Below, piece after piece: positions 40,118 to 56,042 of a DNA stretch of 64,000 nucleotides (positions are counted from its first letter, which is position 1; each line of letters opens with the position of its first letter). The notes beneath the pieces were generated by a model. It made no database searches, had not been told where the DNA came from, and saw only the letters and a program-made list of their open reading frames with translations. Source of the stretch: Tateyamaria omphalii (lineage in GTDB: Bacteria; Pseudomonadota; Alphaproteobacteria; Rhodobacterales; Rhodobacteraceae); assembly GCF_014651375.1 (NCBI RefSeq), contig NZ_BMWT01000001.1, positions 62,001-126,000 on the forward strand, written 5' to 3'. A program made the position numbers and the translations under genes.

Positions 40118-40949
40118 GGGTCAGGATGCATTGATTTCGGCTGCGCTGCGTGATTCACGAGCTGGAAAACGGAGCGGTGACATGAGCGACCTTTTCTGGC
40201 TGAACGACGAGCAGATGGCCAAGTTGGCCCCCTTTTTCCCTAAGTCGCACGGCAAGCCAAGGGTCGACGACAGGAGGGTTCTGAGCGGGATTATCTTCAT
40301 CAATCGCAATGGCTTGCGTTGGCGTGATGCTCCTGCCGCTTATGGTCCGCACAAAACGCTTTACAGCCGATGGAAGCGTTGGAGCGAGAAAGGCATTTTC
40401 GCTCGGATGATGGCCGGGTTGGCTGCGGAACACGGCGAGAAGCAGACCGTGATGATTGACGCGACATACCTGAAGGCACATCGAACGGCGACCAGTATGG
40501 CCGCCAAAAAAGGGGGCGCGGTCGCCTGATCGGTCGCACCAAGGGCGGTATGAACACCAAGCTACATGCCATCTGCGACAGCCTGGGACGACCGATCGAC
40601 CTGTTCGTCACCGCCGGACAGGTGAGCGATTATATCGGCGCACGGGCGCTGCTCAGTGGCCTGCCAAACGTCAAATGGCTGCTTGGGGATCGCGGTTATG
40701 ACGCTGACTGGTTCAGAGAAGCCTTGCAGGACAAGGGAATACGAGCCTGTATCCCCGGGCGAAGGCAACGAAAGACGCCGGTCAAAAACGACAAGCGCCG
40801 CTATAAGCGGCGAAACCGCATTGAGATCATGTTTGGCAGGCTCAAAGATTGGAGGCGTGTGGCGACCCGCTATGACCGATGTCCAAAGGTCTTCCTATCG
40901 GCCATCGCTCTCGCCGCTGTCGTCATCTATTGGTTATGAATCCTGACCC
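40118..40949 (+). mobile_element. IS5-family insertion sequence (IS427-type), 832 bp
   Basis: The terminal inverted repeats are GGGTCAGGAT at 40118-40127 and its complement ATCCTGACCC at 40940-40949, with further partial matching inward. TA flanks both ends (40116-40117 and 40950-40951), the usual target of this group. It carries one transposase in two frames. The element appears complete. The sequences on both sides are fragments of unrelated genes, so it marks a rearrangement junction. Confidence 0.88.
40182..40939 (+). CDS. IS5-family transposase, two ORFs joined by -1 frameshift
   Basis: ORF A (40182-40529) starts MSDLFWLNDEQMAKLAPFFP and has the DUF4096-type N-terminus and first catalytic Asp (MIDATYLKAHRTA). 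ORF B (to 40939) continues in the -1 frame as RGRGRLIGRTKGGMNTKLHA, with the second Asp (LLGDRGYDADWF) and the Glu (RRNRIEIMFGRLKDW). The shift site is the run A6G5 at 40507-40517, the normal programmed frameshift of this IS group. All DDE residues are present, so the transposase is probably active. Confidence 0.9.
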
Positions 40950-40951
40950 TA

Positions 40952-41420
40952 GCACCACGACAGTATCTGCCAGAGCGCGAACTACATTCAGGTCATGACC
41001 AATCATGATCAGACCTCGCCCCGCAGCCTGGATCAGCTTGAACAGGTCAATCACGCGGGATCTGTTCTGCGCATCCGAGCCCTTGGTCGGCTCGTCGGTG
41101 ACGACAAAGGACGCACGTGCGGCAAGCGCCATCGCAATCATGACCCGTTGCTGCATGCCTCCTGACACCTGGCCCGGATGCTTGTCCAGATCTGCCGCAG
41201 ACAGCCCGGATCAAGCCGCCATCTGAAGATCTCGGCAACCTGCTTGCCAACCGACATCGTTGGATCCGGCGCAATCGCTGGTTCTTGCAGCAGCACAAAA
41301 ACATGGTCTTTCCATAGCGGATTAGCCTTCTTATGGCCATCGAGATAGATGTCACCGGTCACAGTCAGACCGGGCATTGGCACCCCAGACAAGGCCGCAG
41401 CAAAAAGTGATTTACCAGTG
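40952..41420 (-). pseudogene. Fragment of peptide-type ABC transporter ATPase
   Basis: Minus-strand reading shows part of a Walker A region (TTGKSLFAAALSG), then the Q-loop (VFVLLQEPAIAPDP), the signature SGGMQQRVMIAMALAARASF, Walker B (FVVTDEPTKGSD), and the H-loop (LIMIGHDLNVVRALAD), as in DppD/DppF/OppD subunits. There is a frameshift near 41140-41215 between the two halves. The N-terminus is degraded and the C-terminus ends exactly at the IS right end. It is non-functional. Confidence 0.85.
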
Positions 41421-41550
41421 GTCGGGGTAACTCTCTGTCTTTCCGATCTATTCCAGAATTCGCGCGAGAAAAAAATATAGCCTATGGCTTCGTGGCCGGC
41501 AAAAATTCGCGCATAGGTAGTATTAATCATGGAGTTCACAAAAATTCATG

Positions 41551-41673: not shown

Positions 41674-42384
41674 ATGAACGATCCATATGGACCAGTTTTG
41701 CCAGGATCCGGGAAAAACGACTATGAAACATACATGTCGACGGATCAGCTCCTGGCCCTTCAAAAAGGTCCGGATGACTGGGTGTCCAAAGATGAGCTTC
41801 TCTTCCAGGTCACGCATCAATCTACCGAGCTTTGGCTGAAGTTAGCTCATTCTGAATGCGAAGAAGCACTTGCCCTGATGGCTCAGGACGACACCAATGG
41901 TGCCAGCGCATGCCTCCGGCGCTCGACCCAGTGTATTCGCCTCATCCGATACCAGCTCGACATCTTGTCCGAACTGACACCTTGGGACTTTCTGCGACTG
42001 CGTCCGGTTCTTGGGAACGGATCTGGATTTGAGTCACCGGGCTGGCGCAGCATCCGTCAGGTTGGAGCAGCTTTGTCCGACCAGCTAGACGCCTATGTCA
42101 GGCGCAGGGGAATTGACATGGCTCAGACCTATGTGAGTGGTCAGCACGGGTCTGAATATCGTCTGTTCGAAGACCTCATCGACTGGGACGAGAGCGTGTC
42201 TTTGTGGCGCGCCCGGCACTACAAACTGGCTGAGCGCATAATCGGCCAGTTCACCGTCGGCACCAAGGGCACGCCCGTTTCGGCCCTTAAGGATATGCCA
42301 GATACCAAGTTCTTCCTTCAGCTGTGGCGGGTGCGATCCGAACTCGCAGCAATGAGTGGCACCCAGCAAGTAGACCACGCATGA
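41674..42384 (+). CDS. Tryptophan 2,3-dioxygenase family protein
   Basis: The 236-aa protein starts MNDPYGPVLPGSGKNDYETY (ATG 41674; a GTG at 41662 lies inside the GAGGG ribosome binding site). It has the TDO pattern: YMSTDQLLALQ, distal His48 in DELLFQVTHQSTELWLKL, substrate loop GNGSGFESPGW, and proximal heme ligand His182 in WRARHYKLAERIIG, followed by GTKGTPVSALKD. It is shorter than typical bacterial TDO (about 270-290 aa) but complete in motifs. It is expected to open the indole ring of tryptophan to N-formylkynurenine. It is the first gene of the cluster and overlaps the next gene by 4 bp. Confidence 0.88.
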   Translation: MNDPYGPVLPGSGKNDYETYMSTDQLLALQKGPDDWVSKDELLFQVTHQSTELWLKLAHSECEEALALMAQDDTNGASACLRRSTQCIRLIRYQLDILSELTPWDFLRLRPVLGNGSGFESPGWRSIRQVGAALSDQLDAYVRRRGIDMAQTYVSGQHGSEYRLFEDLIDWDESVSLWRARHYKLAERIIGQFTVGTKGTPVSALKDMPDTKFFLQLWRVRSELAAMSGTQQVDHA

Positions 42385-43553
42385 CACAGACGATCGAAGC
42401 CACTCGGAGCGCATTTCCACATATGGATCAGATGGTCTATCTGGCCACTTGCAGCTTGGCGCCACGATCATCCAACGTGGATGCCGCGGTCGCGGAGATG
42501 CTAGGCGCCATGTCACGGCCAGCTTTGGCATGGGCCCGTTTTGAGCAAGAAATAGACGATCTGCGCGAAGAGATTTCCAAGCTTATTAATGCCAAGCCAG
42601 AGCAAATCGCGTTCCTGCCCAATGCTTCCGTTTGCGCCTATCAGATATTGGAAGCGATGACCGATCTTCACCCGCTCGAGATCGTGTATTCGCACGACGA
42701 GTTTCCCTCCATCGCAAATGTTTGGACCGCAGAACAGGCACGAGGTGCCCGATCATATAGCATGGATGACGAAGGCCTTCAGGTATCGCTGGGTCGCCGC
42801 TCAGTTGACCCTGACCAAACGCACGCCACCTTAGTCTCTGTTCCAGCCGTCAGCTATCTGACCGGACGGCGTCCCAACCTGTCGAAAATCGCTACGACCG
42901 CCAGGGAGGCCGGTGCTGTACTCGCTATCGATGCCTACCAAGCGCTTGGCAGTGTTCCGATTGACGTCAATGCGTTGAACTGTGACTTTCTGTTCGCGGG
43001 AACAATGAAATATGCGCTTGGACTTCCGGGCCTTGCGTTCCTCTATGTTAAGGAACCGATGCGCTGGAGCGCTCCAGCACTGACTGGATGGTTCGGACGC
43101 CAAAACCCTTTCGACTTTGAGTCCACAAAATTGGACTATGCGTTGGACGCGCGTCGGTTTCAAACCGGCACCATCGCTGTTCCAAGCGTCTTTTCTGCCA
43201 AGGCCGGGCTAATGCTCCTCTCGGAGGTGACGCAGAAGGACCGCGCGGCGCACATTGCGAATATTGTGGACTACACGGCTCAAAAACTGCTGGTTCAAGG
43301 TGAACAACTTGTAGGCTATCAAAGCGCGGGATCTCATGGAGCCCATGTCGCCTTCTTGGATGCCGAGGCCGAAACTCTTGGCCAGCGTCTCGCAGAGCAA
43401 GGTATTATTACAAGCCCACGTGGAAACGCTGTGCGCGTTTCCTGCCATCAATACACAACAACTTCCGATATCGATGCCCTTTGCACATTCCTGCGGGGGT
43501 ACCGCACGCATCATGGGGGACAGAATGACAATAGCATTGCCAAATCTGCGTAA
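42381..43553 (+). CDS. Class V aminotransferase / kynureninase-like PLP enzyme
   Basis: The 390-aa fold-type I protein starts MTQTIEATRSAFPHMDQMVY. PLP residues are visible: Asp184 in LAIDAYQALGSVPIDVNALN and Lys210 in LFAGTMKYALGLPGLAFLYV. The AYQALGSVPID segment is like that of kynureninases (HAVGNVPLDL) and also of isopenicillin-epimerase-type class V enzymes. In this setting, with TDO and a formamidase-like protein, cleavage of kynurenine or a hydroxykynurenine is the obvious candidate reaction, not proven. It overlaps TDO by 4 bp and the next gene by 28 bp. Confidence 0.82.
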   Translation: MTQTIEATRSAFPHMDQMVYLATCSLAPRSSNVDAAVAEMLGAMSRPALAWARFEQEIDDLREEISKLINAKPEQIAFLPNASVCAYQILEAMTDLHPLEIVYSHDEFPSIANVWTAEQARGARSYSMDDEGLQVSLGRRSVDPDQTHATLVSVPAVSYLTGRRPNLSKIATTAREAGAVLAIDAYQALGSVPIDVNALNCDFLFAGTMKYALGLPGLAFLYVKEPMRWSAPALTGWFGRQNPFDFESTKLDYALDARRFQTGTIAVPSVFSAKAGLMLLSEVTQKDRAAHIANIVDYTAQKLLVQGEQLVGYQSAGSHGAHVAFLDAEAETLGQRLAEQGIITSPRGNAVRVSCHQYTTTSDIDALCTFLRGYRTHHGGQNDNSIAKSA

Positions 43554-44799
43554 AGACACGATTCTAAATCTGGATCGGGACGGAACTGAGAACTCAATCG
43601 TCCATCAACTGATCCTCTGTTTGAACCGGCCGTCCGCGACATCGCTGCCAGTGAGCGAGATCGTCAACACATTTCAGCGGCAGGGAAAGCACTTCGTTCC
43701 TAAGGAAGTGCTTTTGCTGCTATCGCGTATCCGCGACAAACTTTCAGAAAGCGATGACGGCACCGATGGATGGACGATCGCCTTTCTTGATGTCCTTTTG
43801 GACAAGGCCGATCAAACCTATGACTATCATTCCTATCTCGCGCTGAAAGTACTGTTCTGGGGCGACGAGCATCGGATTGATGAAACTGCTCTCGATGAGA
43901 ACATCCTGGCACTGCTCTTGGATCTCCTGGACTTTGAGACCGCTGCACCCAACCAGGCCGTGCGCTGGTTGGATCGGCTGCCCGCAGACGCTGAACTGTT
44001 AGACCTCCGGTGCCAACGGATCCTAAAGCTTGTTCAGCGTCCCGCAGAACGCTTGGGGATCTGGCCGAGCACAAAGGATCTGAGCGCTCCACAGCTTTCG
44101 CACCTGCTATTGGAACTATTCGACAGGCGCTGCCCTCCGACAACCAACGCCCGATTGCACCACACCATTCTACCCGTCGCAACGGTCCACGACGAGTATA
44201 TGTTCATTCGCGTCCTTCAGACGTTCGAAACAGTTTTCAGGTGGCTGGCGCGTGTTTTGCAACGGGTCATCGATCTGGACACCGACAACATAGATCTGTC
44301 CACACATTTGATGCGGCGGTGCTCTGTGCGTTTGAATGAAGTGCAATTCCTGCTGACACTGCTCAGCAGCATGCGCAAGGAAGCATTCGCCGATTTCCGC
44401 CGCTTCACTGAGGGTGCAAGCGCGATTCAATCCCACAGCTATAAGCTGATTGAGGCTCTTTGCCGAACGCCGGACCCGGACAGATTGAACTCAGCCGCGT
44501 TTCAGGCTGTTCCTGGATTGAAGCCAATCCTGAGTTCGCAGACATCCACCCTGGATCAGGTGCTGGAACGCATGAAGCATTCTATAGCGATCTCCGACAC
44601 CAAGTTCGAAGCCTTCAAGGACAGCGCAACCGAATTCGAGACAGCCGTGCTCAGATGGCGCAAATTTCACCATAAACTTGCAGTTTCCATGTTGGGCAAG
44701 ACGACGGGGACGGGATATACCGAAGGCGCGTCGTACCTCGACAAAGTCAAAGATGCGCCGCTTCTCCTGGCAACTACATCGCGTCGGGGAAGCGGATGA
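43525..44799 (+). CDS. Two-part protein with C-terminal TDO-like fold lacking the distal His
   Basis: This is a 424-aa protein starting MTIALPNLRKDTILNLDRDG; GGGGGA precedes the ATG, and another ATG lies at 43513. Residues 1-220 are helical with no family recognised. Residues about 222-412 align by eye with TDO: VHDEYMFIRVLQTFE matches DELLFQVTHQSTE, but the distal His becomes Leu231; AFADFRRFTEGASAIQSHSY matches the substrate loop; RWRKFHHKLAVSMLGKTTGT keeps the proximal His (His382); GASYLDK follows. It is probably a heme protein of the TDO superfamily with changed chemistry, as in PrnB-, MarE- or SfmD-like enzymes. The function is unknown. Confidence 0.65.
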   Translation: MTIALPNLRKDTILNLDRDGTENSIVHQLILCLNRPSATSLPVSEIVNTFQRQGKHFVPKEVLLLLSRIRDKLSESDDGTDGWTIAFLDVLLDKADQTYDYHSYLALKVLFWGDEHRIDETALDENILALLLDLLDFETAAPNQAVRWLDRLPADAELLDLRCQRILKLVQRPAERLGIWPSTKDLSAPQLSHLLLELFDRRCPPTTNARLHHTILPVATVHDEYMFIRVLQTFETVFRWLARVLQRVIDLDTDNIDLSTHLMRRCSVRLNEVQFLLTLLSSMRKEAFADFRRFTEGASAIQSHSYKLIEALCRTPDPDRLNSAAFQAVPGLKPILSSQTSTLDQVLERMKHSIAISDTKFEAFKDSATEFETAVLRWRKFHHKLAVSMLGKTTGTGYTEGASYLDKVKDAPLLLATTSRRGSG

Positions 44800-46472
44800 T
44801 GCACACCCCAAAACCCGACGCACGCGTTGCCATTGTCGGAGCGGGTCCCGTTGGTTTGACCCTCGCGGCGCTGCTTTCAAAGTCCGGTATCTCGACCTCG
44901 CTCTATGACAAGGCACCTCACCTTCTGCGCAAAGGTTCCAAGGCCTGCCTGATACAGGGTGACAGTCTTGAAGTTCTCGACAAGATCGGATGCGCCGCTC
45001 AGATCGCGGAAGAAGGTATCGCCTGGCGCAATGGCCACGTCTTTCTCAATGATATCGAGTTGATGCCGCACACATTTCCCGAGCGGCCTGGGTTCTCCCA
45101 ATTCGTCAACATCTCGCAATATCGGATCGAACAAGAACTGCTGCGGCATCTGGAACAAGACCCGCTTTGTACCTTGTATTGGGATCATGAGGTTGTCGGC
45201 CTGCATCAGACCTCATCCGGCGTGACGCTGGATCTGCGCAATGAAGATCAATCCTTCGCTGCCGAGTATCTTTATGTCGTCGCCTGCGATGGCGTATACA
45301 GCACTGTTCGCGACCTCATGGGGCTGGAATTCCCCGGCTACACGCATCAAAATCCCTTTTTGATCACCGATATCCGCGCCTGCCTCCCCATGCGCAAGGA
45401 GCGGCACTTCTATTTCAATCCTGCGTTCCATCGGGGCCATCAAATGGTCATGCATCCGCAGCCCGACAACATCTGGCGGATCGACTGGCAGCTTGAAAAA
45501 GGTGCAGATATCGCGGCAGAACGCGAAAATGGCGGTCTGGATAAGCGCATCCGCAAAGTCATCGGTGACGTTCCATACAACATCGAATGGATCAGCACCT
45601 ACCAGTTCAATCAGAAAGTCATGGACCGTTTCGTTGCCGGGCGGGTGCTGTTTGCCGGGGATGCGGCACATGCTCTGCCGCCCTACGGGTCTCGTGGCAT
45701 GAACAGTGGAATCCAAGACGCCGACAACTTGGCATGGAAGCTTTCCAGGGTCCTGAACGGAACGTCTGATCCAGGGATTTTGTCCATTTACAGTGACGAG
45801 CGACGGGCCGCAGCGGTTGAAAACGTGCGGCTCACAGAGGCGACAATGCGCTTCATCGCACCGGCCGACCTTCGAAGCAAAGCCATTCGCCACAGCGTTC
45901 TGTTTCTCGCGCGCCTCTTTCCTGCGGCGCGCAAATGGATCGATCATGGAAAGATGTCGGAACCATTTACCTATACGTCATCAGAAATGATCGGGCCTAA
46001 GGATTTTTGCCCTATCGTTGGACACTTCCTGCCAGATCTACCGGTTTTTCTGGAGAATAAACGGAGCCGACTGCGCAAACTCTTGGGCGATGAGTTCACA
46101 TGCCTAATCTTTCCCGAGCAGTCTTCAATTCCGTTGATCCGTGACGTGCGTGCGCCTCTTGGCAAAGAAAGTGATGTGCGTTTTGTCATCGTCCATCGAC
46201 GCGGGGATACGCATCCGCAGGAACCGGCCTCATCGTATGAACAAGCAGATCGGATCGCGAACTATGATGACATTGTCGGCGCGCAGAAATTCGTGTCGAA
46301 AGGGGCATGCTTTTTTATCATTCGCCCTGATGGCTACATCGCGAGTTATCACGCAATTTCAGAGCTTTCGCGTCTGAAGCATCACCTGTGTCGGGCTTCC
46401 ATGAGGATCGAAACGCCTGCGCCGCATGCACGTCCGGTGCGTGCGAACACCGATATGGAAGAGGTTGTGTAA
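44796..46472 (+). CDS. FAD-dependent aromatic hydroxylase (PHBH fold)
   Basis: The 558-aa protein starts MMHTPKPDARVAIVGAGPVG. It has the GxGxxG motif VGAGPVGLTLAALLSKSG, the DG motif VVACDGVYSTVRDLMG, and the GD motif VLFAGDAAHALPPYGSRGMN. The C-terminal 170 residues resemble the thioredoxin-like domain of phenol and MhpA-type hydroxylases. It is expected to use NAD(P)H and oxygen to hydroxylate an aromatic ring; kynurenine or anthranilate-type substrates are plausible from the neighbours. The GSRG in place of the common G-Q-G-x-N loop is slightly unusual. It overlaps the preceding gene by 4 bp. Confidence 0.88.
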   Translation: MMHTPKPDARVAIVGAGPVGLTLAALLSKSGISTSLYDKAPHLLRKGSKACLIQGDSLEVLDKIGCAAQIAEEGIAWRNGHVFLNDIELMPHTFPERPGFSQFVNISQYRIEQELLRHLEQDPLCTLYWDHEVVGLHQTSSGVTLDLRNEDQSFAAEYLYVVACDGVYSTVRDLMGLEFPGYTHQNPFLITDIRACLPMRKERHFYFNPAFHRGHQMVMHPQPDNIWRIDWQLEKGADIAAERENGGLDKRIRKVIGDVPYNIEWISTYQFNQKVMDRFVAGRVLFAGDAAHALPPYGSRGMNSGIQDADNLAWKLSRVLNGTSDPGILSIYSDERRAAAVENVRLTEATMRFIAPADLRSKAIRHSVLFLARLFPAARKWIDHGKMSEPFTYTSSEMIGPKDFCPIVGHFLPDLPVFLENKRSRLRKLLGDEFTCLIFPEQSSIPLIRDVRAPLGKESDVRFVIVHRRGDTHPQEPASSYEQADRIANYDDIVGAQKFVSKGACFFIIRPDGYIASYHAISELSRLKHHLCRASMRIETPAPHARPVRANTDMEEVV

Positions 46473-46473
46473 C

Positions 46474-47451
46474 ATGAGCACTGTATCCAATGACGCACCG
46501 GAACTGGCATGGCTCAACGGCAAGATCATCTCTTGGGACGCATGTGTGATCCACGCGCGCTCGCAAGCTGCTTTTTGGGGCGCGAATGTTTTTGAGGGCG
46601 TTCGCGCCTATTGGAACCCCGATCACGAGCAGTTGTATCTCTACCGGCTGGATGACCATCTGCGTCGGCTGCGCGCGTCCATGAAATGTCTGAATATGCC
46701 TGTGACCTATGACGACGCGGAGCTGCGTGGCGCGGTCCTTGCACTCCTGCGAGAGAGTAACACGCGACAGGACACGCATATCGTCTTCGTGACCGGTTTC
46801 AATTTCGGAACCAACTTCGACTCGCTCGGATATACCGAAGATACGCTGACCCATATCACTGCGTTGCCCATGCCGCGCTCCCCCCGATACGAGAGCGGTG
46901 TTAGCGTCGCGGTTTCCTCCTGGCGACGCATCAGTGATGAGACATCGCCGCCCCGGATCAAAACGGGTGCCAATTATCACAACAGTCGCCTGGCTCAGCA
47001 CGAAGCGGTCCGCAACGGTCACGATACGGCCCTTTTTCTGAACCAACGTGGAACACTTGCCGAAGCACCGGGATGCTGCGTTGCGGTAGTTCTCGGTAAT
47101 GAAATCGTGACGCCCCCTGGAACAAGCGGAGTCTTGGAAGGGATCACCTTAGATACGATGGGGCGCTTGGCCTCAGAACGTTTGGGTCTGACTTTTCAGC
47201 GGCGCGAAATTGATCGAACAGAGCTTTATCTGGCGGACGAGGCGATGCTCTGCGGAACGCTCGCCGAGTTACAACCGATAATTCGTGTGGATGGGGTCGA
47301 CATCGGTACCGGCAAACCGGGTCCAATCCTGCGCGAACTTCAGCAGCTCTATGATCAGGAAGTTCGCACGGGGGGCCAGTCAACGCCGGTTTACCCAGCA
47401 ACGGAGACGCATGTTGAGGACAAACCTTTGACGCTGGAAGCAGGACAATGA
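46474..47451 (+). CDS. Class IV aminotransferase (BCAT/DAAT/ADCL family)
   Basis: The 325-aa fold-type IV PLP enzyme starts MSTVSNDAPELAWLNGKIIS. It has AAFWGANVFEGVRAYWNPDH near the N-terminus (branched-chain aminotransferase-like), Lys163 in SPPRIKTGANYHNSRLAQHE and the Glu in LAEAPGCCVAVVLGNEIVTP. The usual SEG...N motif is changed to AEAPGCC. It may transaminate a 2-oxo acid or act as a lyase. It lies 1 bp after the flavin hydroxylase stop and overlaps the next gene by 4 bp. Confidence 0.87.
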   Translation: MSTVSNDAPELAWLNGKIISWDACVIHARSQAAFWGANVFEGVRAYWNPDHEQLYLYRLDDHLRRLRASMKCLNMPVTYDDAELRGAVLALLRESNTRQDTHIVFVTGFNFGTNFDSLGYTEDTLTHITALPMPRSPRYESGVSVAVSSWRRISDETSPPRIKTGANYHNSRLAQHEAVRNGHDTALFLNQRGTLAEAPGCCVAVVLGNEIVTPPGTSGVLEGITLDTMGRLASERLGLTFQRREIDRTELYLADEAMLCGTLAELQPIIRVDGVDIGTGKPGPILRELQQLYDQEVRTGGQSTPVYPATETHVEDKPLTLEAGQ

Positions 47452-48218
47452 CGTTCGGTGAGAAAGTCACGACAATTGATCTGACGGCGCCCTTGTCCGA
47501 AGCCACACCGGTTATTCGGCTGCCTGACGCATTTAACCAAGCTTGGCCGTTTTCGCGGCAGTTGATCAGCAAGTACGACGCAAAGGGAGAGGCTTATTGG
47601 TACAACATCTCATTATCGGAGCACACCGGAACGCATATTGACGCTCCGATACATTGGAAATCGGGGGAAACAGGTTCGGATGTTGCATCAATTCCGCTTG
47701 AGCACCTGATCGCGCCAGCCGTTGTGCTTGATACAAGCGCAGAGGTCGCTCAATCTCCTGACTTTCTGCTGACCATTGAACACGTGATGTCATGGTGCGA
47801 TGCGAACGGGCCGCTCCCGGACGGTGGGTGGCTCCTTTATCGTACTGGTTGGGACGAGCGGGACCAGGACAGCGACAGCTTTCTGAACAACGGGCATACG
47901 CCAGGTATCGAAGCCGACTGCGCGAAATGGTTGGCGTGCGACACTGGTTTGATCGGCATTGGCGTGGAAACCGTGGGGACAGATGCCGGAAAGGCAGCCG
48001 GGCAGACGCCGCCGTTCCCAGTACACTGGTATTTTCTTGGAGCCGGAAAATACGGCATTACTCAACTCAAGAACCTCTCAAGGCTCCCGGCCACCGGTTT
48101 TCAGATCGTGGTTGCGCCTTTGCCGATTGTTGGTGGTACCGGCAGTCCTTGCCGCGTTTTCGCGCGTCTCCCCGATGTCAGAGGCGACACGCACGAAGGG
48201 GGCGCGCCAAAACCATAA
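47448..48218 (+). CDS. Cyclase family protein, kynurenine formamidase-like
   Basis: The 256-aa protein starts MTFGEKVTTIDLTAPLSEAT. It carries the metal-binding motif SEHTGTHIDAPIHW (His59, His63, Asp65) and the later LIGIGVETVGTDAG, as in bacterial KynB and related cyclase-family hydrolases. KynB hydrolyses N-formylkynurenine to kynurenine, which would follow the TDO step encoded six genes upstream in the same operon. Sequence distance from standard KynB (about 210 aa) leaves room for another amide substrate. Confidence 0.85.
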   Translation: MTFGEKVTTIDLTAPLSEATPVIRLPDAFNQAWPFSRQLISKYDAKGEAYWYNISLSEHTGTHIDAPIHWKSGETGSDVASIPLEHLIAPAVVLDTSAEVAQSPDFLLTIEHVMSWCDANGPLPDGGWLLYRTGWDERDQDSDSFLNNGHTPGIEADCAKWLACDTGLIGIGVETVGTDAGKAAGQTPPFPVHWYFLGAGKYGITQLKNLSRLPATGFQIVVAPLPIVGGTGSPCRVFARLPDVRGDTHEGGAPKP

Positions 48219-48313
48219 ATTCATAGGCTCACCAATCGAATTTCATCACCCCTCTCTCCTTCTGGAGAACGGTCAAAGTATCACGGAAACTCCCGCAAAA
48301 GAGGCACAGTCAT

Positions 48314-49426
48314 ATGAAAATTGAAGCTGTTATTCGAAAAGGGGTCGTTCAAACGGAGCGGCGAAAGTTTCGAGAGAAGCTTGCGCAGCGACCATCTTAT
48401 CTGCGCCTCGACCTGAATGAAAACCTGATCGACATTCCGAGTTCGGCATTCGATGAATTCCTCCAAGGCCTCACGCCCGAGATGTTGTCCGCCTATCCGG
48501 AGCTGAGCCGCGTTTACAAGGCCGTTTCAAAGTTCTTCGATATCGGCGAGGACATGATTGTACTGACCAACGGGTCGGATTTGGCCGTCAAAACCCTATT
48601 CGATTCCTGCATCGATGCCGGCGATCATATCCTCGTACACGACCCCTTCTACTTGATGTATGCACGGTACTCGGAATTCTTCGAAGCAGATCTCGAAACA
48701 GTTCCAGTGCTTGACAACTGGAAGCCGGACCTTTCCGAAATGTCCCGGCGGCTGCGGCCCAATACAAAAATGGTCATTCTTGAAACGCCGAGTGGAAACC
48801 TCGGCTCATCCGCCGATTTCGACGACATTGCACATCTGGCGCAAGAGTTGGAGTTGCGCAACGTTCTGCTGGTAATTGATGAAGCCTACTTGTTCGTAGA
48901 GAGCGGTGACAGCCGTTTCCTTGACCTGCAAAAAAGGCACAAAAACATTGTCATATTGCGCACTTTTTCAAAGGTGTTTGGGCTGGCAGGCGCGCGGATC
49001 GGGGCCGTCATTGCGAGCCCGGAACTGACGCAGCAGTTTTACAAGGTGCGCCCGCTTTATGAAATCAGTGCTTTGGCGGCTCATGCGGTCGAATGGCGTT
49101 TGGGTCAGCCACAGCTCTTGTCGGCGTACCAAAAGACGATGCGGGAGTCGAAAGAGTGGCTGAAAGCGCGGCTCGAAGAGTTGCGCATCCCCTGTCGCGA
49201 TGGCGCCGGGAATTTCGTCGTCATTTATGTGCCAGATGGCGATCGGGGTCCGTTTTTCGATCTGGCGAAAGAGAAAGGCGTCCTCATCGGAAAGCCGTTT
49301 TACCAACCGCAATTGCGCGGGTGGTGGAGAGTGACGGTTGGGTCGCTTCCTCAATGCAAGACCTTCATCAATGCCTTGTCGGACTCGGTTGCCTCGCCGG
49401 ACCCGGCCACGGCGAACGAAATCTGA
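48314..49426 (+). CDS. HisC-like class I/II aminotransferase
   Basis: The 370-aa PLP enzyme starts MKIEAVIRKGVVQTERRKFR after AGAGG. It has LRLDLNENLIDIP, Asp189 and Tyr192 in VIDEAYLFVESGDS, and Lys220 in LRTFSKVFGLAGARIGAVIA, the pattern of histidinol-phosphate aminotransferase-like enzymes and threonine-phosphate decarboxylase relatives. It is not near his genes; in this cluster it probably forms or modifies an unusual amino acid. A 95-bp gap precedes it, the largest but one within the cluster, so an internal promoter is possible. Confidence 0.88.
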   Translation: MKIEAVIRKGVVQTERRKFREKLAQRPSYLRLDLNENLIDIPSSAFDEFLQGLTPEMLSAYPELSRVYKAVSKFFDIGEDMIVLTNGSDLAVKTLFDSCIDAGDHILVHDPFYLMYARYSEFFEADLETVPVLDNWKPDLSEMSRRLRPNTKMVILETPSGNLGSSADFDDIAHLAQELELRNVLLVIDEAYLFVESGDSRFLDLQKRHKNIVILRTFSKVFGLAGARIGAVIASPELTQQFYKVRPLYEISALAAHAVEWRLGQPQLLSAYQKTMRESKEWLKARLEELRIPCRDGAGNFVVIYVPDGDRGPFFDLAKEKGVLIGKPFYQPQLRGWWRVTVGSLPQCKTFINALSDSVASPDPATANEI

Positions 49427-49442
49427 AATCAGGAGACCTCTA

Positions 49443-49907
49443 ATGACACATGCCCCATTGTCGAAACCCGTCGGCATCAATCATATTTCCATTGAAGTCG
49501 GTGATGTTGCGGAAGCCGTGACGTTCTACAGCAGCATCTTCCAGATCGAAGTGGTCTACGAAGACAAAGCCGGGATTCCGCGCGACGAAATGGCCTCTGT
49601 CGAGCTTGGGGATCAGTTCATGGTCTTCACCCGAAGCAACCGAAGCAATCGGGACGTCGACCGTCATTTTGGTCTCGTTGTGGACGACAAAGAACGGGTC
49701 CGCGAACGACTTCATGAGCTCAAAATCGATCTTCTGCCTCTGGACACGTTGACCTTCCTCGATCCTTGGGGGAATCGCGCGGAAATCGTTTCGTATCAGA
49801 ACATCACATTCACAAAGCTTCCCGGGGTGCTCAGGCAGATGGGCTTGGATGGCATTGAAAAGAACGAAAAGGCCAAGGTCAACATGGCCAAAAAAGGGTT
49901 CGTTTAA
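49443..49907 (+). CDS. VOC (glyoxalase/dioxygenase) superfamily protein
   Basis: The 154-aa protein starts MTHAPLSKPVGINHISIEVG. It has two beta-alpha-beta-beta-beta repeats; candidate metal ligands are His in INHISIEV, His in DVDRHFGLVVDD and Glu in NRAEIVSYQ. VOC proteins include isomerases, dioxygenases and antibiotic-binding resistance proteins, so it could be a tailoring enzyme or a self-protection protein. AGGAG lies about 8 nt upstream, 16 bp after the aminotransferase. Confidence 0.83.
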   Translation: MTHAPLSKPVGINHISIEVGDVAEAVTFYSSIFQIEVVYEDKAGIPRDEMASVELGDQFMVFTRSNRSNRDVDRHFGLVVDDKERVRERLHELKIDLLPLDTLTFLDPWGNRAEIVSYQNITFTKLPGVLRQMGLDGIEKNEKAKVNMAKKGFV

Positions 49908-49966
49908 GGCCCACGGCTCATCGTTTGTGCCGAGAGATGCACACCAATCCAGAACCGGAGTGTGAG

Positions 49967-51250
49967 ATGACAAAGACGCTTGCCATAATTCATCCGTCGT
50001 ACGACATACCGTTCATTTTCGAGGTCGCCGCGCGCGATGGGTACAAGCTCGTGTCGATCCTACCAGAGCATGGTCTTGAGACCTGTCAATATGAGGCCGT
50101 CATTGGGTCTGCGATATTACCAATCTACGAGGACCCCGAGACTGCCCTATTAGAGTTTGAAGCTCTACATACCAAATGGCAGTTCGATGGGATCTGGCCA
50201 ATCAAAGAACACAGCATGGTCTGGGCCAGCACACTCGCAAAGAGGCTCGGCATGCCCGGCATATCTCCGGAGGCCTCAGTGGCTGCGCGCGATAAGACAA
50301 CAATGCGAAGCCGGTTCGAACGAGCAGGGATGCGGGTGCCACGCAATGTCACGGTATTACCAGACGATAGTAGCTCGGTCTGCGCCAATCTCACCTTCCC
50401 AGTCGTGGTCAAGCCCGCATCTGGATATAACAGTTCTGGTGTCCAATTGGCTTATTGCGAGGCAGAGCTCGACCCTGCCATCTGCCATGTGCGCGAGTTG
50501 AACCGCCAGATCTATGACGAGCATTCTTGGAGCACAATGGGAACCTTTTCCAAAGTCATTGTTGAGGAATTTATTGATGGCCCCGAATATGTGGTGGAGA
50601 CCTTTGCCGTTGACGGAGACGTCAGGGCGCTGAATTGTGGCTATAAGGGAGATCCAAAGGGTCCTTATTTCGAAGAGACCATTTACCTTTGCCCCAGTGG
50701 GGCAGGTACTGAACTCGAGGCCAAAATGAAGGCCGAGGCCATAAACGGAACCAAGGCGCTTGGTCTTAACAACGGGCCTGCCCATTGCGAGATGCGGCTG
50801 GATGCCAATAACGAGCCGGTTCTTCTTGAAATTGGCGCGCGCCTTGGCGGCGCGGGCTGCGCTCATTTCAATGTCGAAGCCTCCTCGGGCGTGGATTTGG
50901 CAGGGTTACAAATGCACCAGGTCGCCGGCACACTGACCTCTGCCCATTGGCCGCCCCCCGAACAGGGTCTTGGCAAGGCCGCGAGCAGTTGGATCATGCC
51001 CTTGGGAGGATCTGGATATCTGGAGAGTGTGACCGGTCTGGACGACGTGAAGCGCCATCCCGATTTCCGCCACGCGCTGGAATTTGCGCGGTTTGGTGAA
51101 TTCTACCGACCGTATCCGGATTTTGATGGCTACATCTACATCATATTTGGCCAACACGATGGACCCGAGCAGGGTTATGCGTTCTTTGACTTTCTCGACG
51201 CGACACTTAAGGCCCAGTGGCGATCCGTTGATGTCGGCTCTGTCGCATGA
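49967..51250 (+). CDS. ATP-grasp ligase 1
   Basis: The 427-aa protein starts MTKTLAIIHPSYDIPFIFEV; GGAG lies before the ATG at 49967. The ATP-grasp fold is shown by FPVVVKPASGYNSSGVQLAY (ATP-binding Lys and flexible loop), IVEEFIDGPEYVVETFAV, and the metal-binding C-terminal CEMRLDANNEPVLLEIGARL followed by GGAG. ATP-grasp enzymes of this size join a carboxylate to an amine via an acyl-phosphate (for example BacD-type amino-acid ligases). It is followed with a 4-bp overlap by a second, distinct ATP-grasp gene. Confidence 0.9.
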   Translation: MTKTLAIIHPSYDIPFIFEVAARDGYKLVSILPEHGLETCQYEAVIGSAILPIYEDPETALLEFEALHTKWQFDGIWPIKEHSMVWASTLAKRLGMPGISPEASVAARDKTTMRSRFERAGMRVPRNVTVLPDDSSSVCANLTFPVVVKPASGYNSSGVQLAYCEAELDPAICHVRELNRQIYDEHSWSTMGTFSKVIVEEFIDGPEYVVETFAVDGDVRALNCGYKGDPKGPYFEETIYLCPSGAGTELEAKMKAEAINGTKALGLNNGPAHCEMRLDANNEPVLLEIGARLGGAGCAHFNVEASSGVDLAGLQMHQVAGTLTSAHWPPPEQGLGKAASSWIMPLGGSGYLESVTGLDDVKRHPDFRHALEFARFGEFYRPYPDFDGYIYIIFGQHDGPEQGYAFFDFLDATLKAQWRSVDVGSVA

Positions 51251-52461
51251 CCGCGCCGCTGCTTCTGTTGGGTAAAACCTTAGATGCCCCCGACCAAGCA
51301 CAGCGTATTGAAGCATCTGGACAGCCGGTGTTTCTGGTAACGCGCAGGGCGCGCTTTGATGCGCGGTACGATCTGGGAGTCAATCAGGTTCTGATTACCG
51401 AGCTCGAAACAGATGCCCTGGCGGAGGTGCTGGATAGCATTCATGAGGCATCCCCTTTTTCAGGCGTCTTGTCTCTGACGCAGCCATTCCTGGACCTCGC
51501 ATGTCAACTAGGGCGGCGTTGGAGCCTGCCGCATCTCAATCCCAAGGCGGTCGCGCTCTTGCCCGACAAGACCGCGATGCGCCTTCGGCTCAGCGAACAT
51601 GATGAACTGTCTGTTCCTCATCGGCTTTGCCGCAATGTGGAAGACATCCTAAACTTCCATGCCAGTTTGGGACGCCCCGTGATCGTCAAACCGGCGAAGG
51701 GAAATGGCAGCATCGGTGTTACGTTTGTTGATAGTGAAAACCGGGCGAAACAGGCAATGGCTCGCATTGAAGCCGTGGGCGACATGGCACTTGCCGAACT
51801 CTGGCTCGGCGGGCGAGAATTTAGTGTCGAAACATTCTCTTTGAACAAACGTCACCATCTATTTGCGATCACAGAAAAGATCGTGGACAAAAACTTCATT
51901 GAAACCGGACATCTTGTACCGGCCCGGCTGAGCACAGAGGAACAGGCGCGCATATGGCAGCAGGTACAGACCTTTCTGGATCACGTTTCGCTGACCGATG
52001 GACCTGGGCATACCGAAATCAAAGTGGATGGATCAAACGTCGCCGTGATCGAGTCACACAACCGCTTCGGCGGCGGTCAGATTACGAAGTTGATGCAACT
52101 TGCGCTTGGCATAGACACGACGCAAGTTGCCGCAAAATGGGCATGTGGCGAGGGTTTTGCCCCAACACCAAACACGCGTACTGCCGCCGCCGCCGTTCGC
52201 TTCATTACCCTGCCCCAGGGTCGCATTCGACAGATCAGCGCTCCGACCGAGGGCCAACTGGGTCCCGAAAGCGAAATGGTTGAACACACGTTCAAACTCG
52301 GTGTCGGCGATTTCGTGCCAGAGTTGGCAGGCAACATGCAACGCGCCGGTTACTTCATCGTAAAGGCACGAACGGCGGATGCCGCATTTGCAGAAGCAGA
52401 TCGACTTGAGTCGCTGTTCCGGATTGACGTGGAACCACGAGACGGCATGGTCAACGCATGA
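51247..52461 (+). CDS. ATP-grasp ligase 2
   Basis: The 404-aa protein starts MTAPLLLLGKTLDAPDQAQR. It has RPVIVKPAKGNGSIGVTFVD, ALAELWLGGREFSVETFSLN, and the C-terminal catalytic strand GPGHTEIKVDGSNVAVIESH followed by NRFGGGQI. It is clearly diverged from ligase 1, so the two probably make successive bonds with different substrates. It overlaps ligase 1 by 4 bp. A 127-bp gap follows. Confidence 0.9.
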   Translation: MTAPLLLLGKTLDAPDQAQRIEASGQPVFLVTRRARFDARYDLGVNQVLITELETDALAEVLDSIHEASPFSGVLSLTQPFLDLACQLGRRWSLPHLNPKAVALLPDKTAMRLRLSEHDELSVPHRLCRNVEDILNFHASLGRPVIVKPAKGNGSIGVTFVDSENRAKQAMARIEAVGDMALAELWLGGREFSVETFSLNKRHHLFAITEKIVDKNFIETGHLVPARLSTEEQARIWQQVQTFLDHVSLTDGPGHTEIKVDGSNVAVIESHNRFGGGQITKLMQLALGIDTTQVAAKWACGEGFAPTPNTRTAAAAVRFITLPQGRIRQISAPTEGQLGPESEMVEHTFKLGVGDFVPELAGNMQRAGYFIVKARTADAAFAEADRLESLFRIDVEPRDGMVNA

Positions 52462-52588
52462 ATTCAACCGCCGGCGTCATCCGAACCAAACATCGATTTC
52501 CTCTTCTGTGGGATCCTTTTTTCGAAATGCGGGCAACGGGCTGTTTGCAAATTGTGCTGTCTGGCTCTGGGCTAGGCCAAGGAACGCT

Positions 52589-53773
52589 ATGATTTTCATT
52601 TCAAGTGACTTTGAGGCCGGAAACATTCTTGTTTTGAGCGCAAGCAGCCCCGGTGATATTAGGGTGGAGATCGAGACGGACAGCAACGCCACATCCTACC
52701 AGTGGTTCTACTTTCGACTAGACGGTGCAGAAGGTGAACCCTGTCGGATATCGATCGAGAATGCGGGCGACGCCTATGCTGGCGGATGGGACGATTACCA
52801 AGCGGTCGCCTCTTATGATCAGAAGTCTTGGCGTCGGGTTCCCACGTGTTACGAAGACGGACGTCTGATCATTTCAATGACACCAGAGTGTGGTCAGGTT
52901 TTCATTGCTTTTTTTGCTCCCTACCCTTTGCAGCGAGAGGCGGCATTGTCAAAGCTGGTAACGGCCAGTGCAGATACCCAACGTGAAGTTCTGGGGCGGA
53001 GTGTAGATGGGGCAGATATCGAGCTTTTGAACCTGCAATCCAGGCGCGCTGACGCTTTAAAGTTTTGGATCACCGCGCGTCAGCATCCCGGCGAAACGAT
53101 GGGGTCGTGGTGGTTGGAAGGTCTAGTGCATCGATTGCTTGATGAGTTGGACGAGCAGGCCGTTCGTTTACGCGAGCTGGCTGACATCTTTATTATCCCA
53201 AATATGAACCCCGACGGCTGTTTGCGTGGAAATCTGCGCGCGAACGCTGCGGGTGAGGACTTGAACCTGGCTTGGCCAGAAGCAACTCTACTGCGCAGCC
53301 CAGAGGCCTATTATGTTCGCAATCGCTTGTTTCAGACAGGTGCCGATCTCGTTCTGGACGCGCATGGGACCGAAACGCTGTCGCATGTCTTTTTGGTGGG
53401 CCCGGAAGGGCCCGCGGGCCATCGCGACCCAATCCGCGGCATCGTCGACTCTTTTAAAGATGCGTTGAAACGTGCGAACCGAGATTTTCAAACGGAATTT
53501 GGGTACCCCACGCCGGATCCTCTGAAGGCGAACCTCAGCATCACAAGCAACTACTTAGGGGAGACGCTTGGCTGTCCTTGCGTGACTCTGGAAATGCCGT
53601 TCAAAGACTCCATGCACAACCCTGATCCCAATGAGGGTTGGTCACCTGCACGTTGCCAACAGTTGGGCCATGATACGGTTGCTGCTCTGCTGGACATCGC
53701 CCCAGAGCTAAAACGTGTGCGCGAGGCATGGTGCGCACCCCAAAACAAACAGAGTTACTGCGGGCAGCAATGA
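52589..53773 (+). CDS. M14 zinc carboxypeptidase, cytosolic (CCP/AGBL-like) type
   Basis: The 394-aa protein starts MIFISSDFEAGNILVLSASS with AAGGA before the ATG at 52589. The N-terminal beta domain typical of cytosolic carboxypeptidases is followed by the zinc site His166/Glu169 in ARQHPGETMGSWW, NMNPDGCLRGNLRANAAGED, His259 in VLDAHGTETLSHVF and the catalytic Glu in CVTLEMPF. No signal peptide is seen. It may trim a peptide precursor, remove a protecting residue, or inactivate the product inside the producer. It overlaps the exporter gene by 4 bp. Confidence 0.88.
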   Translation: MIFISSDFEAGNILVLSASSPGDIRVEIETDSNATSYQWFYFRLDGAEGEPCRISIENAGDAYAGGWDDYQAVASYDQKSWRRVPTCYEDGRLIISMTPECGQVFIAFFAPYPLQREAALSKLVTASADTQREVLGRSVDGADIELLNLQSRRADALKFWITARQHPGETMGSWWLEGLVHRLLDELDEQAVRLRELADIFIIPNMNPDGCLRGNLRANAAGEDLNLAWPEATLLRSPEAYYVRNRLFQTGADLVLDAHGTETLSHVFLVGPEGPAGHRDPIRGIVDSFKDALKRANRDFQTEFGYPTPDPLKANLSITSNYLGETLGCPCVTLEMPFKDSMHNPDPNEGWSPARCQQLGHDTVAALLDIAPELKRVREAWCAPQNKQSYCGQQ

Positions 53774-55194
53774 GTGATCAAAGCGTTTCAGACTCGGTAG
53801 CGTGGAGGGAAGTCATCGTCTCCCCTCAGGCCGGCGCACTGGCGGTCATCGCGATGGCGATATGGATGCATGCCGCCAATAGTCTGCTTGTCACCACACT
53901 CTTGCCTGCAATCGTTGCTGACATCGGCGGGCGCGCGCTGGTCGCGTGGAGCTTGGCGCTGTACGAAATGGGCACGATCATCACGGGTATCGCGGGCGGG
54001 CTAATGGCCATCCGCTTCGGGCTTCGGGCTCCGATGGCCGCGACAGCGCTCTTGTTCTTCGCAGGATGCATAACAAGCGCCAGTGCGCAGACTATGCCGG
54101 GGCTGCTGGTTGGCCGTTTTGTTCAGGGGCTTGGCGGCGGTGGTTTGGTTGCGCTCTGCTTTGTTGCTGTCACAGTCTTATTCCCGCGGCGCCTCGTTGC
54201 GCGTGCAACGGCCGTAATTTCAACAGTTTGGGGTGTGTCGGCGTTTCTTGGCGCGTTGATTGGTGGCCTGCTTGTTGAGTACGCAACCTGGCGAGTGGGT
54301 TTCGCAGCATTCGCAGTGCAGGCATTGATTGTGACGGCTGCCCTCATAATGAGCAAACAGTTCGGCGCTGCACCTACACAGACCGAAGAGCAAAGGTCTT
54401 TTCCGGCCGCGAGGCTCGCGTTTCTGGCGCTCGGCGTCGCTTCTATTGCTTACGCCGGCATTGAGGTTGCCTTGCTCCGCACCAGCGGGTTCGTCGTGCT
54501 GGGAATTCTATGTCTCGCCCTGGTTCTGGCGTTGGATCGCCGCGCGGGCACCAACCGCTTGCTCCCGAAGGCCCCGTTTAGTTTGGTTACGCCGCAGGGC
54601 GCGGCTTTGACGATGATGCTTTTCTTTGGCATGGCGACGGTTGCAATAACGGCGTACGGCCCAATCCTCATGACCGCCATCCATGGGGTGTCCGCTCTGA
54701 CGGCTGGTTACATCGTGGCGGGGCACTCTATCGGCTGGACCGCAGCGGCGTTTTTCGTATCAGGCGCAGCGGAGCGACATGATTCTAAATTGATTGCGTT
54801 TGGGCTCGCGCTCGCGACGCTTAGCATTTTCGGCTTCTTGTGGAGCGTGCCGAACGGGCCAGCGAGCTTGATCGCGGTTTTCACGATAATGGAAGGGTGT
54901 GGCTTTGGACTTGCCTTCACTTTCTTGCTGCGCAGGGTCATTTCGGTGATTGATCCGGCAGAGATCGAAAGAACGGCAAGTGCTATCCCGACGACGCAAC
55001 GATTTGGCTATGCTTTGGGCGTGGCATATATCGGGATCATTGCCAATATGGCAGGCTACCCCGTTGCGGAGACGCCTGAAGAAACAGCAGCCGCAGCCCG
55101 GATAATCTTTGCCAGTTGCCTTCCACTCGCCGGTATCGGCATCGTCGCGACGGTGATGCTCTTGACCCGAAAGCGCGCAGTGGCCTCAGACTGA
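53770..55194 (+). CDS. MFS exporter, drug:H+ antiporter type
   Basis: The 474-aa membrane protein starts MSDQSVSDSVAWREVIVSPQ; the ATG overlaps the carboxypeptidase stop. About 14 transmembrane helices are predicted by eye, with motif C-like segments (GRFVQGLGGGGLVALCFVAV; ISTVWGVSAFLGALIGGLLV), as in the DHA2/EmrB group. It is the last gene of the cluster, a natural place for product export and self-resistance. No terminator was recognised in the 80 bp behind it. Confidence 0.9.
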   Translation: MSDQSVSDSVAWREVIVSPQAGALAVIAMAIWMHAANSLLVTTLLPAIVADIGGRALVAWSLALYEMGTIITGIAGGLMAIRFGLRAPMAATALLFFAGCITSASAQTMPGLLVGRFVQGLGGGGLVALCFVAVTVLFPRRLVARATAVISTVWGVSAFLGALIGGLLVEYATWRVGFAAFAVQALIVTAALIMSKQFGAAPTQTEEQRSFPAARLAFLALGVASIAYAGIEVALLRTSGFVVLGILCLALVLALDRRAGTNRLLPKAPFSLVTPQGAALTMMLFFGMATVAITAYGPILMTAIHGVSALTAGYIVAGHSIGWTAAAFFVSGAAERHDSKLIAFGLALATLSIFGFLWSVPNGPASLIAVFTIMEGCGFGLAFTFLLRRVISVIDPAEIERTASAIPTTQRFGYALGVAYIGIIANMAGYPVAETPEETAAAARIIFASCLPLAGIGIVATVMLLTRKRAVASD

Positions 55195-55283
55195 GCCACG
55201 GCAGACCCAACACATTGCAGGACAGACACTTTTGCAGTGAATGATTGGGGCTGTCCCGTTTTTGTGCCGCGCCCGGTGCTCGT

Positions 55284-55590
55284 TTAGGCCAATTTCGTTT
55301 CGAAAGCGACGGGGCTTTTCCAGCCCGGTGCTGAGTGGCGGCGACGCGGATTGTAGAAGCCATTGATGTATTCGAAGATGAGCATCTCAGCCTTGCGTCG
55401 TGTCTCCCAGGGATGCCGCCAAATCAGTTCAGCCTTAATGGTTTTGAAGATCGTCTCGACGGTCGCGTTGTCATGGCAATTGCCCTCCCAGACATCGGCA
55501 CCTTGAACCCGTGCTGACGCTGGATTTTCTGGTAGTCATGAGGACAGTATTGCGACCCACGGTCCGCGTGATGGATGCAGCCCTTTGGCA
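55284..55590 (-). pseudogene. IS3-family transposase fragment
   Basis: Reading the minus strand gives IHHADRGSQYCPHDYQKIQR, then after a frameshift near 55485 the usual C-terminus (TVETIFKTIKAELIWRHPWE, IFEYINGFYNPRRRHS, VAFETKLA stop). This is the end of an IS3-family OrfB integrase. The N-terminal half and the IS ends are missing. Confidence 0.85.
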
Positions 55591-55646
55591 GTGACCGGAA
55601 GGGGTCTGTTCCGGCTGGGGGCAGAATGACACCTTAAGGCCGGATG

Positions 55647-56036
55647 TCATCGATTTTTCCACCTGTATTCGCCCGTGAGCAGGATATGTGCCCATCCAAG
55701 CGGTGAGATGTGCGAGAGAAGCTCCGGCGCACAGTCGAGACCTGCGCGTTTTCGGGCGGAGACTGCGTGGCCCAGGTGCTTGGTATTCCAATAGATAATG
55801 ATAGTGGCCAGCAGGTTAAGACCTGCCATGCGGTAGTGCTGGCCCTCAGAAGTTCTATCACGGATTTCGCCTTGGCGGCCAATGCGAAGGGCGTTTTTCA
55901 AGGCGTGGTACGCCTCGCCCTTATTCCGACCAACATTGGCACGGCGCTGCATATCGGCATTGAGCAGCCAGTCGATGATGAACAGCGTACGCTCTATGTG
56001 CCCGATTTCCCGGAGCGCCAGGGCAAGTTCATCGAA
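55647..56036 (-). pseudogene. Tn3-family transposase C-terminal fragment
   Basis: The minus-strand frame reads FDELALALREIGHIERTLFI, ADMQRRANVGRNKGEAYHAL, RQGEIRDRTSEGQHYRMAGL and LSHISPLGWAHILLTGEYRW, the conserved end of Tn3-type transposases. The 5' portion is replaced near 56040 by a transporter fragment, so this is a remnant rather than an active transposon. Confidence 0.88.
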
Positions 56037-56042
56037 GACGCA

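Follow-up and report, generated by a model that had tools for sequence, protein, structure and literature searches.

What would a bacterium build from tryptophan with a run of genes that opens on members of the tryptophan dioxygenase (TDO) superfamily and closes on two ATP-grasp ligases, a carboxypeptidase and an exporter? The question is raised by Tateyamaria omphalii (Rhodobacteraceae), in a window of 64,000 nucleotides (RefSeq assembly GCF_014651375.1, contig NZ_BMWT01000001.1, positions 62,001 to 126,000) whose positions 41,674–55,194 hold twelve genes, here termed g1 to g12, all on the plus strand and none with an internal stop. It is probable, and we hold this with good confidence, that they represent a conserved, mobile, tryptophan-fed cluster for the production of a peptide by ATP-grasp ligases. 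An earlier note on this DNA, made from the sequence alone, had argued for the biosynthesis of a secreted small peptide or amide and not for catabolism, and the amide ligases and the exporter do point in that direction.

More tentatively, and with the balance of probability slightly against it, the acquired cluster may direct a secreted small peptide built around a tryptophan-derived non-protein arylglycine, made by a full isatin route. On this route g1 and g3 would place two oxygens on the indole of L-tryptophan to give 3-hydroxy-2-oxindolyl-alanine (dioxindolylalanine); g2, a pyridoxal phosphate (PLP) enzyme, would remove the side chain by breaking the bond from C-beta to C-gamma in a retro-aldol reaction of the kynureninase type, releasing alanine and isatin; and the amidohydrolase g6 would open the isatin lactam to 2-aminophenylglyoxylate. 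The ring would be hydroxylated by the flavin-dependent g4, and the keto acid transaminated by g5 to (hydroxy-)2-aminophenylglycine. A second building block would be made or trimmed by g7 and g8, whilst the ATP-grasp ligases g9 and g10 would form peptide bonds, g11 could serve in trimming or in detoxification and self-protection, and g12 would export the product. Every substrate, product and step named here is one that we infer; the gene families, catalytic residues, linkage, nested gene content and the tie between g5 and the ATP-grasp genes are what was observed. More doubtful still is the wider proposal that bacteria of three phyla have in common a so far undescribed route of biosynthesis from tryptophan through isatin, in which two unlike members of the TDO superfamily, a PLP enzyme that cleaves the side chain and an amidohydrolase of a new type would lead to 2-aminophenylglyoxylate or, with a transaminase, to ortho-aminophenylglycines, and from there to ATP-grasp peptides or, in other lineages, to other products.

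Conserved linkage and nested gene content

Relatives of the cluster were collected with a g3 profile built from five proteins (alignment A1), which picked out 95 relatives from the genome collection. Eighty of these were kept and joined by three plasmid loci (three of five plasmid records), giving 83 g3-bearing loci in which the presence of the other genes was scored by tblastn, at thresholds of 30–55% identity depending on the gene. The core genes g1–g6 were found together in 16 of the 83, in the phyla Actinomycetota, Pseudomonadota and Chloroflexota; since the loci had been picked only for a relative of g3, the cluster is not a chance assembly. The same follows from Yersinia alsatica (L019), where g1–g10 stand in the window's order at 42–67% identity for g1–g9 and 33% for g10. 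Chitinimonas viridis (L021) carries g3–g10, a third ATP-grasp gene and then g1 and g2, and both Photorhabdus noenieputensis (L041) and Cysteiniphilum marinum (L020) carry g1–g6, ATP-grasp genes, g7 and g8; g9 is 56% identical to its counterpart in Y. alsatica and 52% to that in C. viridis. The genes are thus linked in relatives, where the earlier note had allowed that they might prove to lie apart. Searches of congeners, phylum, class and the 83 loci returned partial sets of the twelve genes only, and for g11 no tblastn match was found in the 83 loci at 1e-8.

Gene content in these loci is nested. Twenty-three have g3 alone, 28 have g3 with g1, and seven have g3 with g1 and g2; one locus has g1–g3 with g6, six have g6 and g4 as well, and 16 have g6, g4 and g5. 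The remaining two are odd: the contig of L058 ends in g4, and in L073 g1 lies near a contig start and just under its threshold. These two, both at contig ends, are the only violations of nesting, against a mean of 62.9 and a least value of 48 in 2000 column shuffles. A more distant g2-like gene (25–29%) adjoins in 18 of the 28 loci with g3 and g1, all from Micromonospora and kin, and the nesting holds if it is counted as g2. Nesting of this kind is what a linear pathway running in about this order would give, and the putative order of the steps is taken from gene content.

The ligases follow one gene in particular. An ATP-grasp profile made from eleven proteins of the window and related loci was run against six-frame translations of the 83 loci; it found ATP-grasp genes in 15 of the 16 full loci (one to three each), in none of the seven with g6 but without g5, and in two of the 60 others (L051 and L058). 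The association with g5 (Fisher 3e-5, uncorrected for kinship, six of the seven g5-less loci being a single clade) would be expected if g5 makes an amino acid that the ligases join.

Enzymes of the proposed precursor route

Three TDO residues are found in the short heme oxygenase g1: the distal histidine (His48), Arg110, which is present in 28 of 36 relatives, and the histidine that ligates the heme (His182). Compared with XcTDO, the stretch of g1 that runs from the lid to the heme ligand is short by about 51 residues, and like MarE it is missing the extra helices that precede the heme ligand in TDO. Its model (pLDDT 87.6; alignment A5, 36 sequences) is nearest to MarE (Z 23.3, 2.7 Å over 221 residues), with Xanthomonas TDO at Z 20.5 (2.4 Å over 214 residues). 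MarE is described as forming 2-oxindoles and as having the loop motifs DATG and SLGGR (PMC11904535). Eight of the 36 g1 proteins (L033, L039, L050, L055, L065, L072, L076 and L082; Micromonospora-type and one Pseudonocardia) have Gln (six), Lys (one) or Ala (one) at the position of the TDO substrate-binding Arg, and the substrate of these eight may be one without a free carboxylate.

In the longer g3 the distal His is replaced by Leu231, and L231, R292 and H382 are invariant across 65 sequences; the heme-ligand His and the helical TDO fold place it in the TDO/HDAO superfamily. Its model (pLDDT 90.1) was made, as was the g3 tree, from alignment A4 (62 sequences); neither A4 nor A5 includes loci whose gene calls were truncated or unusual, and some near-duplicates were also omitted. 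The model scored Z 17.6 against PrnB, 17.3 against TDO and 16.7 against IDO1, with the rows at most 1.3 Z apart, so that no choice among PrnB, TDO and IDO as closest kin was made by fold, and its best Foldseek E value was 1.2e-3. Whether in turn or as one heteromer, g1 and g3 would act on the same indole.

The best solved relative of g2 is kynureninase (1qz9, 4.6e-14), and its Lys211 and Arg353 are invariant in 21 aligned sequences. A cysteine desulfurase was considered and rejected: SufS is the top NCBIfam model (72.6 of 475.1 bits), yet the alignment has no Cys in the loop before the carboxylate-binding Arg, where desulfurases have a cysteine with a role in their reaction. Kynureninase carries out retro-aldol cleavage on gamma-hydroxy substrates, which is a precedent for the conversion of dioxindolylalanine into isatin and alanine.

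For g6, the match to isatin hydrolase (5nmp) reaches 3.6e-62. The metal motif of that enzyme, HxG(T/A)HxDxPxH, is present as HTGTHIDAPIH, and the proton-transfer His and Asp are conserved as H193 and D179. Judged by its sequence, g6 is kin of the isatin hydrolases with a signature of its own, and does not qualify as one of them.

Weighing the isatin route

Several observations weigh against this route. By sequence g1 is nearer to TDO (34%) than to MarE (22%), Foldseek puts TDO first, and in place of the DATG and SLGGR loops of MarE it has GNGSG and GTKGT; g3 may be a partner and not an oxygenase. The motifs WxW/FxW and GLQC/GLAS, given as marks of isatin hydrolase activity (PMC6117287), are replaced by (V/A)xW and G(L/I)TQ in 24 of 24 g6 sequences, and because both pocket motifs differ the substrate of g6 may be other than isatin; a hydroxylated or otherwise altered isatin is possible. 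An order with g4 before g6 fits the nesting equally, as L075 (g6 without g4) stands alone against the cut locus L058. The presence thresholds were set by eye after a first tblastn comparison, the loci are related by descent and their counts are not independent, and the six loci with g4 but without g5 are one actinobacterial clade in the g3 tree. In the full locus L054 no ATP-grasp gene lies within reach, and the roles given to g7, g8 and g11 are guesses. Lastly, a preprint on auxin degradation (PMC12633357) revises the first steps of an older isatin route and itself shows no isatin.

These points leave room for other readings, among which it is somewhat unlikely that g1 and g3 are one heteromeric enzyme carrying out a PrnB-like rearrangement of tryptophan, so that the core would yield another ring-altered unit and g6 would open a lactam that is not isatin. 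The 24 altered g6 pockets would suit such a substrate, 59 of the 83 loci hold both g1 and g3, and the g3 model has PrnB as its nearest structure, tied with TDO; the identity between g3 and PrnB is, however, only 10–13%, and 23 of the 83 loci have g3 but no g1 of this type.

The kynurenine route, on which the earlier note had placed three of the genes, was considered first and is now judged unlikely. Here g1 or g3 would form N-formylkynurenine, g6 would deformylate it and g2 would release (hydroxy)anthranilate, to be decorated and ligated. The TDO residues retained in g1 and its top sequence score against TDO, the kynureninase kinship of g2, and the metal motif and family that g6 shares with KynB all agree with this, but each of the three proteins falls far below its equivalog cut-off: g1 scores 131.6 bits (and g3 52.5) against 390.7 for TDO (TIGR03036), g2 scores 46.1 against 246.4 for kynureninase (TIGR01814), and g6 scores 40.3 against 223.05 for arylformamidase (TIGR03035). 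Moreover, g6 matches the kynurenine formamidases (KynB) at 6e-6 to 3e-5, far from its match to isatin hydrolase, and it is missing their I(L/I)E motif, with GITQ near that place. Seven of the 83 loci have g1, g2 and g3 without g6, which is odd for a kynurenine pathway because the formamidase must act before the kynureninase. The second TDO-type protein and g5 would be left without a role, and the host genome has another TDO-family gene elsewhere (G000:C3, a frame of 275 aa), longer than g1 and with a Pfam score above it. It is very unlikely that the product is a tryptophan-derived siderophore, pigment or signal instead of an antimetabolite-type peptide, an aryl acid being extended by a single amino acid through ATP-grasp enzymes, for although hydroxylated 2-aminoaryl acids could bind metal and an exporter is predicted, the twelve genes include no siderophore receptor or uptake family, and the aminotransferase and the ligase go together.

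Gene layout

The isatin route remains the reading that we prefer for the genes set out in Table 1. Twelve co-directional genes with mostly tight junctions had been noted before, and this is confirmed: no frame is broken, and nine of the eleven junctions are of 29 bp or less. Six junctions overlap (by 4 to 29 bp), five of them by 4 bp (g1/g2, g3/g4, g5/g6, g9/g10 and g11/g12) and g2/g3 by 29 bp; short gaps separate three pairs of genes (1, 16 and 29 bp), whilst the larger gaps are of 95 bp at g6/g7 and 127 bp at g10/g11. The gene starts were re-set to those listed, that of g11 because its family domain opens just there. Eleven of the gene families named earlier stand, the exception being g6, which had been called a formamidase-like cyclase and is closer to isatin hydrolase. 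Promoter-like sites numbered 7 (7.5 in shuffles) and terminator-like sites 6 (15.7 in shuffles).

Table 1. Features of the cluster and its borders, in window coordinates; e values and bit scores are for the families named.
Feature	Position	Strand	Family matches and remarks
IS4/5-type transposase in two frames, left of cluster	40131..40939	+	PF13340 5.5e-22; DDE_Tnp_1_2 1.8e-17
g1, short TDO-superfamily heme oxygenase, 236 aa, MarE-like architecture	41674..42384	+	PF03301 Trp_dioxygenase 7.8e-27
g2, class V PLP enzyme, kynureninase/desulfurase-like	42381..43553	+	Aminotran_5 5.7e-30
g3, long TDO-superfamily protein, 424 aa, distal His to Leu231	43525..44799	+	PF03301 1e-11 (C-terminal part)
g4, FAD aromatic hydroxylase	44796..46472	+	FAD_binding_3 1.1e-62; NCBIfam PRK08132 500.8 bits (cut-off 416)
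g5, class IV (branched-chain type) aminotransferase	46474..47451	+	Aminotran_4 1.1e-39; 6h65 2.4e-89
g6, isatin-hydrolase-like cyclic amidohydrolase, GITQ signature	47448..48218	+	PF04199 Cyclase 8.4e-39
g7, HisC-like PLP aminotransferase	48314..49426	+	Aminotran_1_2 1.6e-40; hisC 206.9 of 276.55 bits; in 4/83 loci
g8, VOC (glyoxalase fold) protein	49443..49907	+	PF00903 2.8e-6; in 4/83 loci
g9, ATP-grasp ligase 1	49937..51250	+	ATP-grasp_4 2.6e-22
g10, ATP-grasp ligase 2	51247..52461	+	ATP-grasp_4 2.1e-17; LAL_C2 1.5e-9
g11, M14 zinc carboxypeptidase with cytosolic-carboxypeptidase N-domain	52589..53773	+	PF18027 3.7e-33; PF00246 8.2e-14 (longer frame from 52379)
g12, MFS exporter, drug-efflux type	53770..55194	+	MFS_1 9.5e-32; SdrM 95.7 bits, under cut-off 550
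IS3 and Tn3 transposase remnants, right of cluster	55241..56012		Tn3 DDE domain 2.5e-29 at 55650-55952, minus strand; DNA matches to IS3/Tn3 transposase genes

Horizontal origin and flanking DNA

We read the cluster as horizontally acquired by a Rhodobacteraceae (Roseobacter-type) host, because of its base composition, the transposon remnants at its borders, the patchy occurrence of g9 and g3 in relatives and the place of g3 in its tree. The content of guanine plus cytosine (G+C) is 55.3% in the cluster and 60.5% in the rest compared (1–38,000 and 56,792–64,000), with third-position values of 0.57–0.65 in cluster genes and 0.54–0.78 in 14 flanking frames. The right-hand remnant stretch is matched by 12 plasmid records (Ruegeria, Roseovarius, Paracoccus and other Rhodobacteraceae), at 78–83% identity for eight among the matches listed and 95–99% for one further. 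No g9 ligase was found in 19 congeners at 1e-30, nor, at 1e-80 with the Yersinia g9 as query, in another 397 genomes of the phylum, and one of 384 other genomes of the class gave a match at 1e-60 (34%, with one internal TGA). Matches to g3 were found in four of 60 relatives, of which three are weak and the other is at 37%. In the g3 tree, which has 62 rows, the window pairs with Y. alsatica (100/99) inside a five-row clade whose other four members are Pseudomonadota (100/99); seven g3 genes of Roseobacteraceae, of other setting, lie outside this clade, and the window sits on a long end branch (1.16). A search of viral contigs gave 46 candidate stretches, none of which was confirmed.

Between the left transposase and g1 (40950–41540) the DNA reads like a decayed ABC-transporter ATPase, with short DNA matches at ABC transporter genes; minus-strand frames there gave no Pfam match. 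At 55710–56333 the end of a frame that overlaps the Tn3 remnant is MFS-transporter-like (18.7 of 33.4 bits, below the family cut-off). The ten left-hand proteins that were scanned (443–37060) are ordinary: a DnaE-like polymerase, a MoxR/BatA set, PbpC with alpha-2-macroglobulin, a hybrid histidine kinase, RecQ (to which a DpdF match belongs) and an M74 endopeptidase.

Other settings of the core genes

In Y. alsatica the divergent neighbours of the cluster (L019, 3548–5275, minus strand) are methylaspartate (glutamate) mutase E and a B12-binding subunit, which suggests 3-methylaspartate as a partner amino acid in that species; the E chain was found in one of the 83 loci. In the g5-less actinobacterial clade a Rieske protein lies between g4 and g6 in four of six loci (L022, L038, L040 and L045). 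An arylamine N-acetyltransferase beside the core in Lentzea was considered as support for an aryl amine, but it occurs in one of the six loci of this clade and was not used. An extra gene precedes the ATP-grasp gene and g1–g6 in an actinobacterial subgroup (L023, L027, L029, L031, L032, L037, L043, L049 and L056), and its L023 member (458 aa) had no Pfam match. Pairs of g1 and g3 stand near very large genes resembling nonribosomal peptide synthetases (NRPSs) in four Streptomyces loci (L011, L048, L060 and L066), and the annotation of L011 lists NRPS modules, a LysW-type aminoadipate kinase and argC. Seven Roseobacteraceae loci (L024, L026, L028, L034, L044, L047 and L068) have a g3-like gene with a TDO-like gene 1–7 kb on, six of them sharing nearby peptide-ABC-transporter genes; these are a separate use of the g3 family.

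Relation to known systems

In clusters of the bacilysin and dapdiamide type a few enzymes produce an unusual amino acid that is then coupled by an ATP-grasp ligase, and the product is exported by an MFS protein. The set of genes in the window is of the same type. The L-amino acid ligase domain LAL_C2 is found in g10 (38.4 bits, cut-off 29.4), with g9 below it at 16.5 bits; g9 and g10 are weak matches to BacD (42.6 and 49.2 bits) and g9 to DdaF (33.5 bits), and the ligase of the Chloroflexota relative L057 matches BacD at 170 bits. The cluster differs in that its precursor apparently comes from tryptophan via two TDO-type proteins, in that its ligases lie far below the equivalog cut-offs of BacD (850 bits) and DdaF (840 bits), and in having two ligases and an M14 peptidase. 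Among single enzymes, MarE of the maremycin pathway is the closest fold to g1 and shares its shortening before the heme ligand, whereas g1 is without the MarE loops and comes with a second TDO-type gene. The isatin hydrolases LaIHA, LaIHB and RsIHA resemble g6 in sequence, metal motif and catalytic residues but differ in both pocket motifs, and PrnB of the pyrrolnitrin pathway resembles g3 in fold but hardly in sequence.

A chemical parallel comes from auxin degradation in Variovorax, for which the preprint cited above describes the conversion of indoleacetate into dioxindole-3-acetate, loss of the side chain to give C8H7NO2, and then the action of IadI (PMC12633357). IadI is annotated as a kynurenine formamidase, its product is reported not to be N-formylanthranilate, and the authors suggest a broad amidase; earlier work that they cite put isatin and isatinic acid on the auxin route. 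The likeness to the route proposed here lies in the passage from an indole to a dioxindole acid, the loss of the side chain and the subsequent action of a formamidase-annotated enzyme, whereas the iad system as described is catabolic, uses a Rieske oxygenase, starts from indoleacetate and ends at anthranilate. The nearest tryptophan-route cluster that was found is that of mycemycin, with dibenzoxazepinone products as described (PMC5867642). A hydrazine-forming heme family (PMC12154649, preprint) was set aside, as it is described as a different protein family with a ferredoxin partner. The statement that no named pathway has this set of genes agrees with the open-access literature searched by titles and abstracts, in which none was found, though a subscription paper could hold it.

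Significance

The type of cluster, in which an odd amino acid is made, coupled by an ATP-grasp ligase and exported, is already known, and it is the six-gene precursor pathway that appears new. If the proposal is true, it would add a further fate of tryptophan in secondary metabolism beside the kynurenines and intact indoles, and a new pair of heme-type enzymes whose division of labour could be tested. It would also make g3 and g6 a sequence handle for small peptides that mining based on NRPSs or on ribosomally synthesized and post-translationally modified peptides (RiPPs) would miss. The nested relatives would then be natural stopping points along the pathway, and a set such as that of L075 (g1, g2, g3 and g6) is predicted to end at 2-aminophenylglyoxylate.

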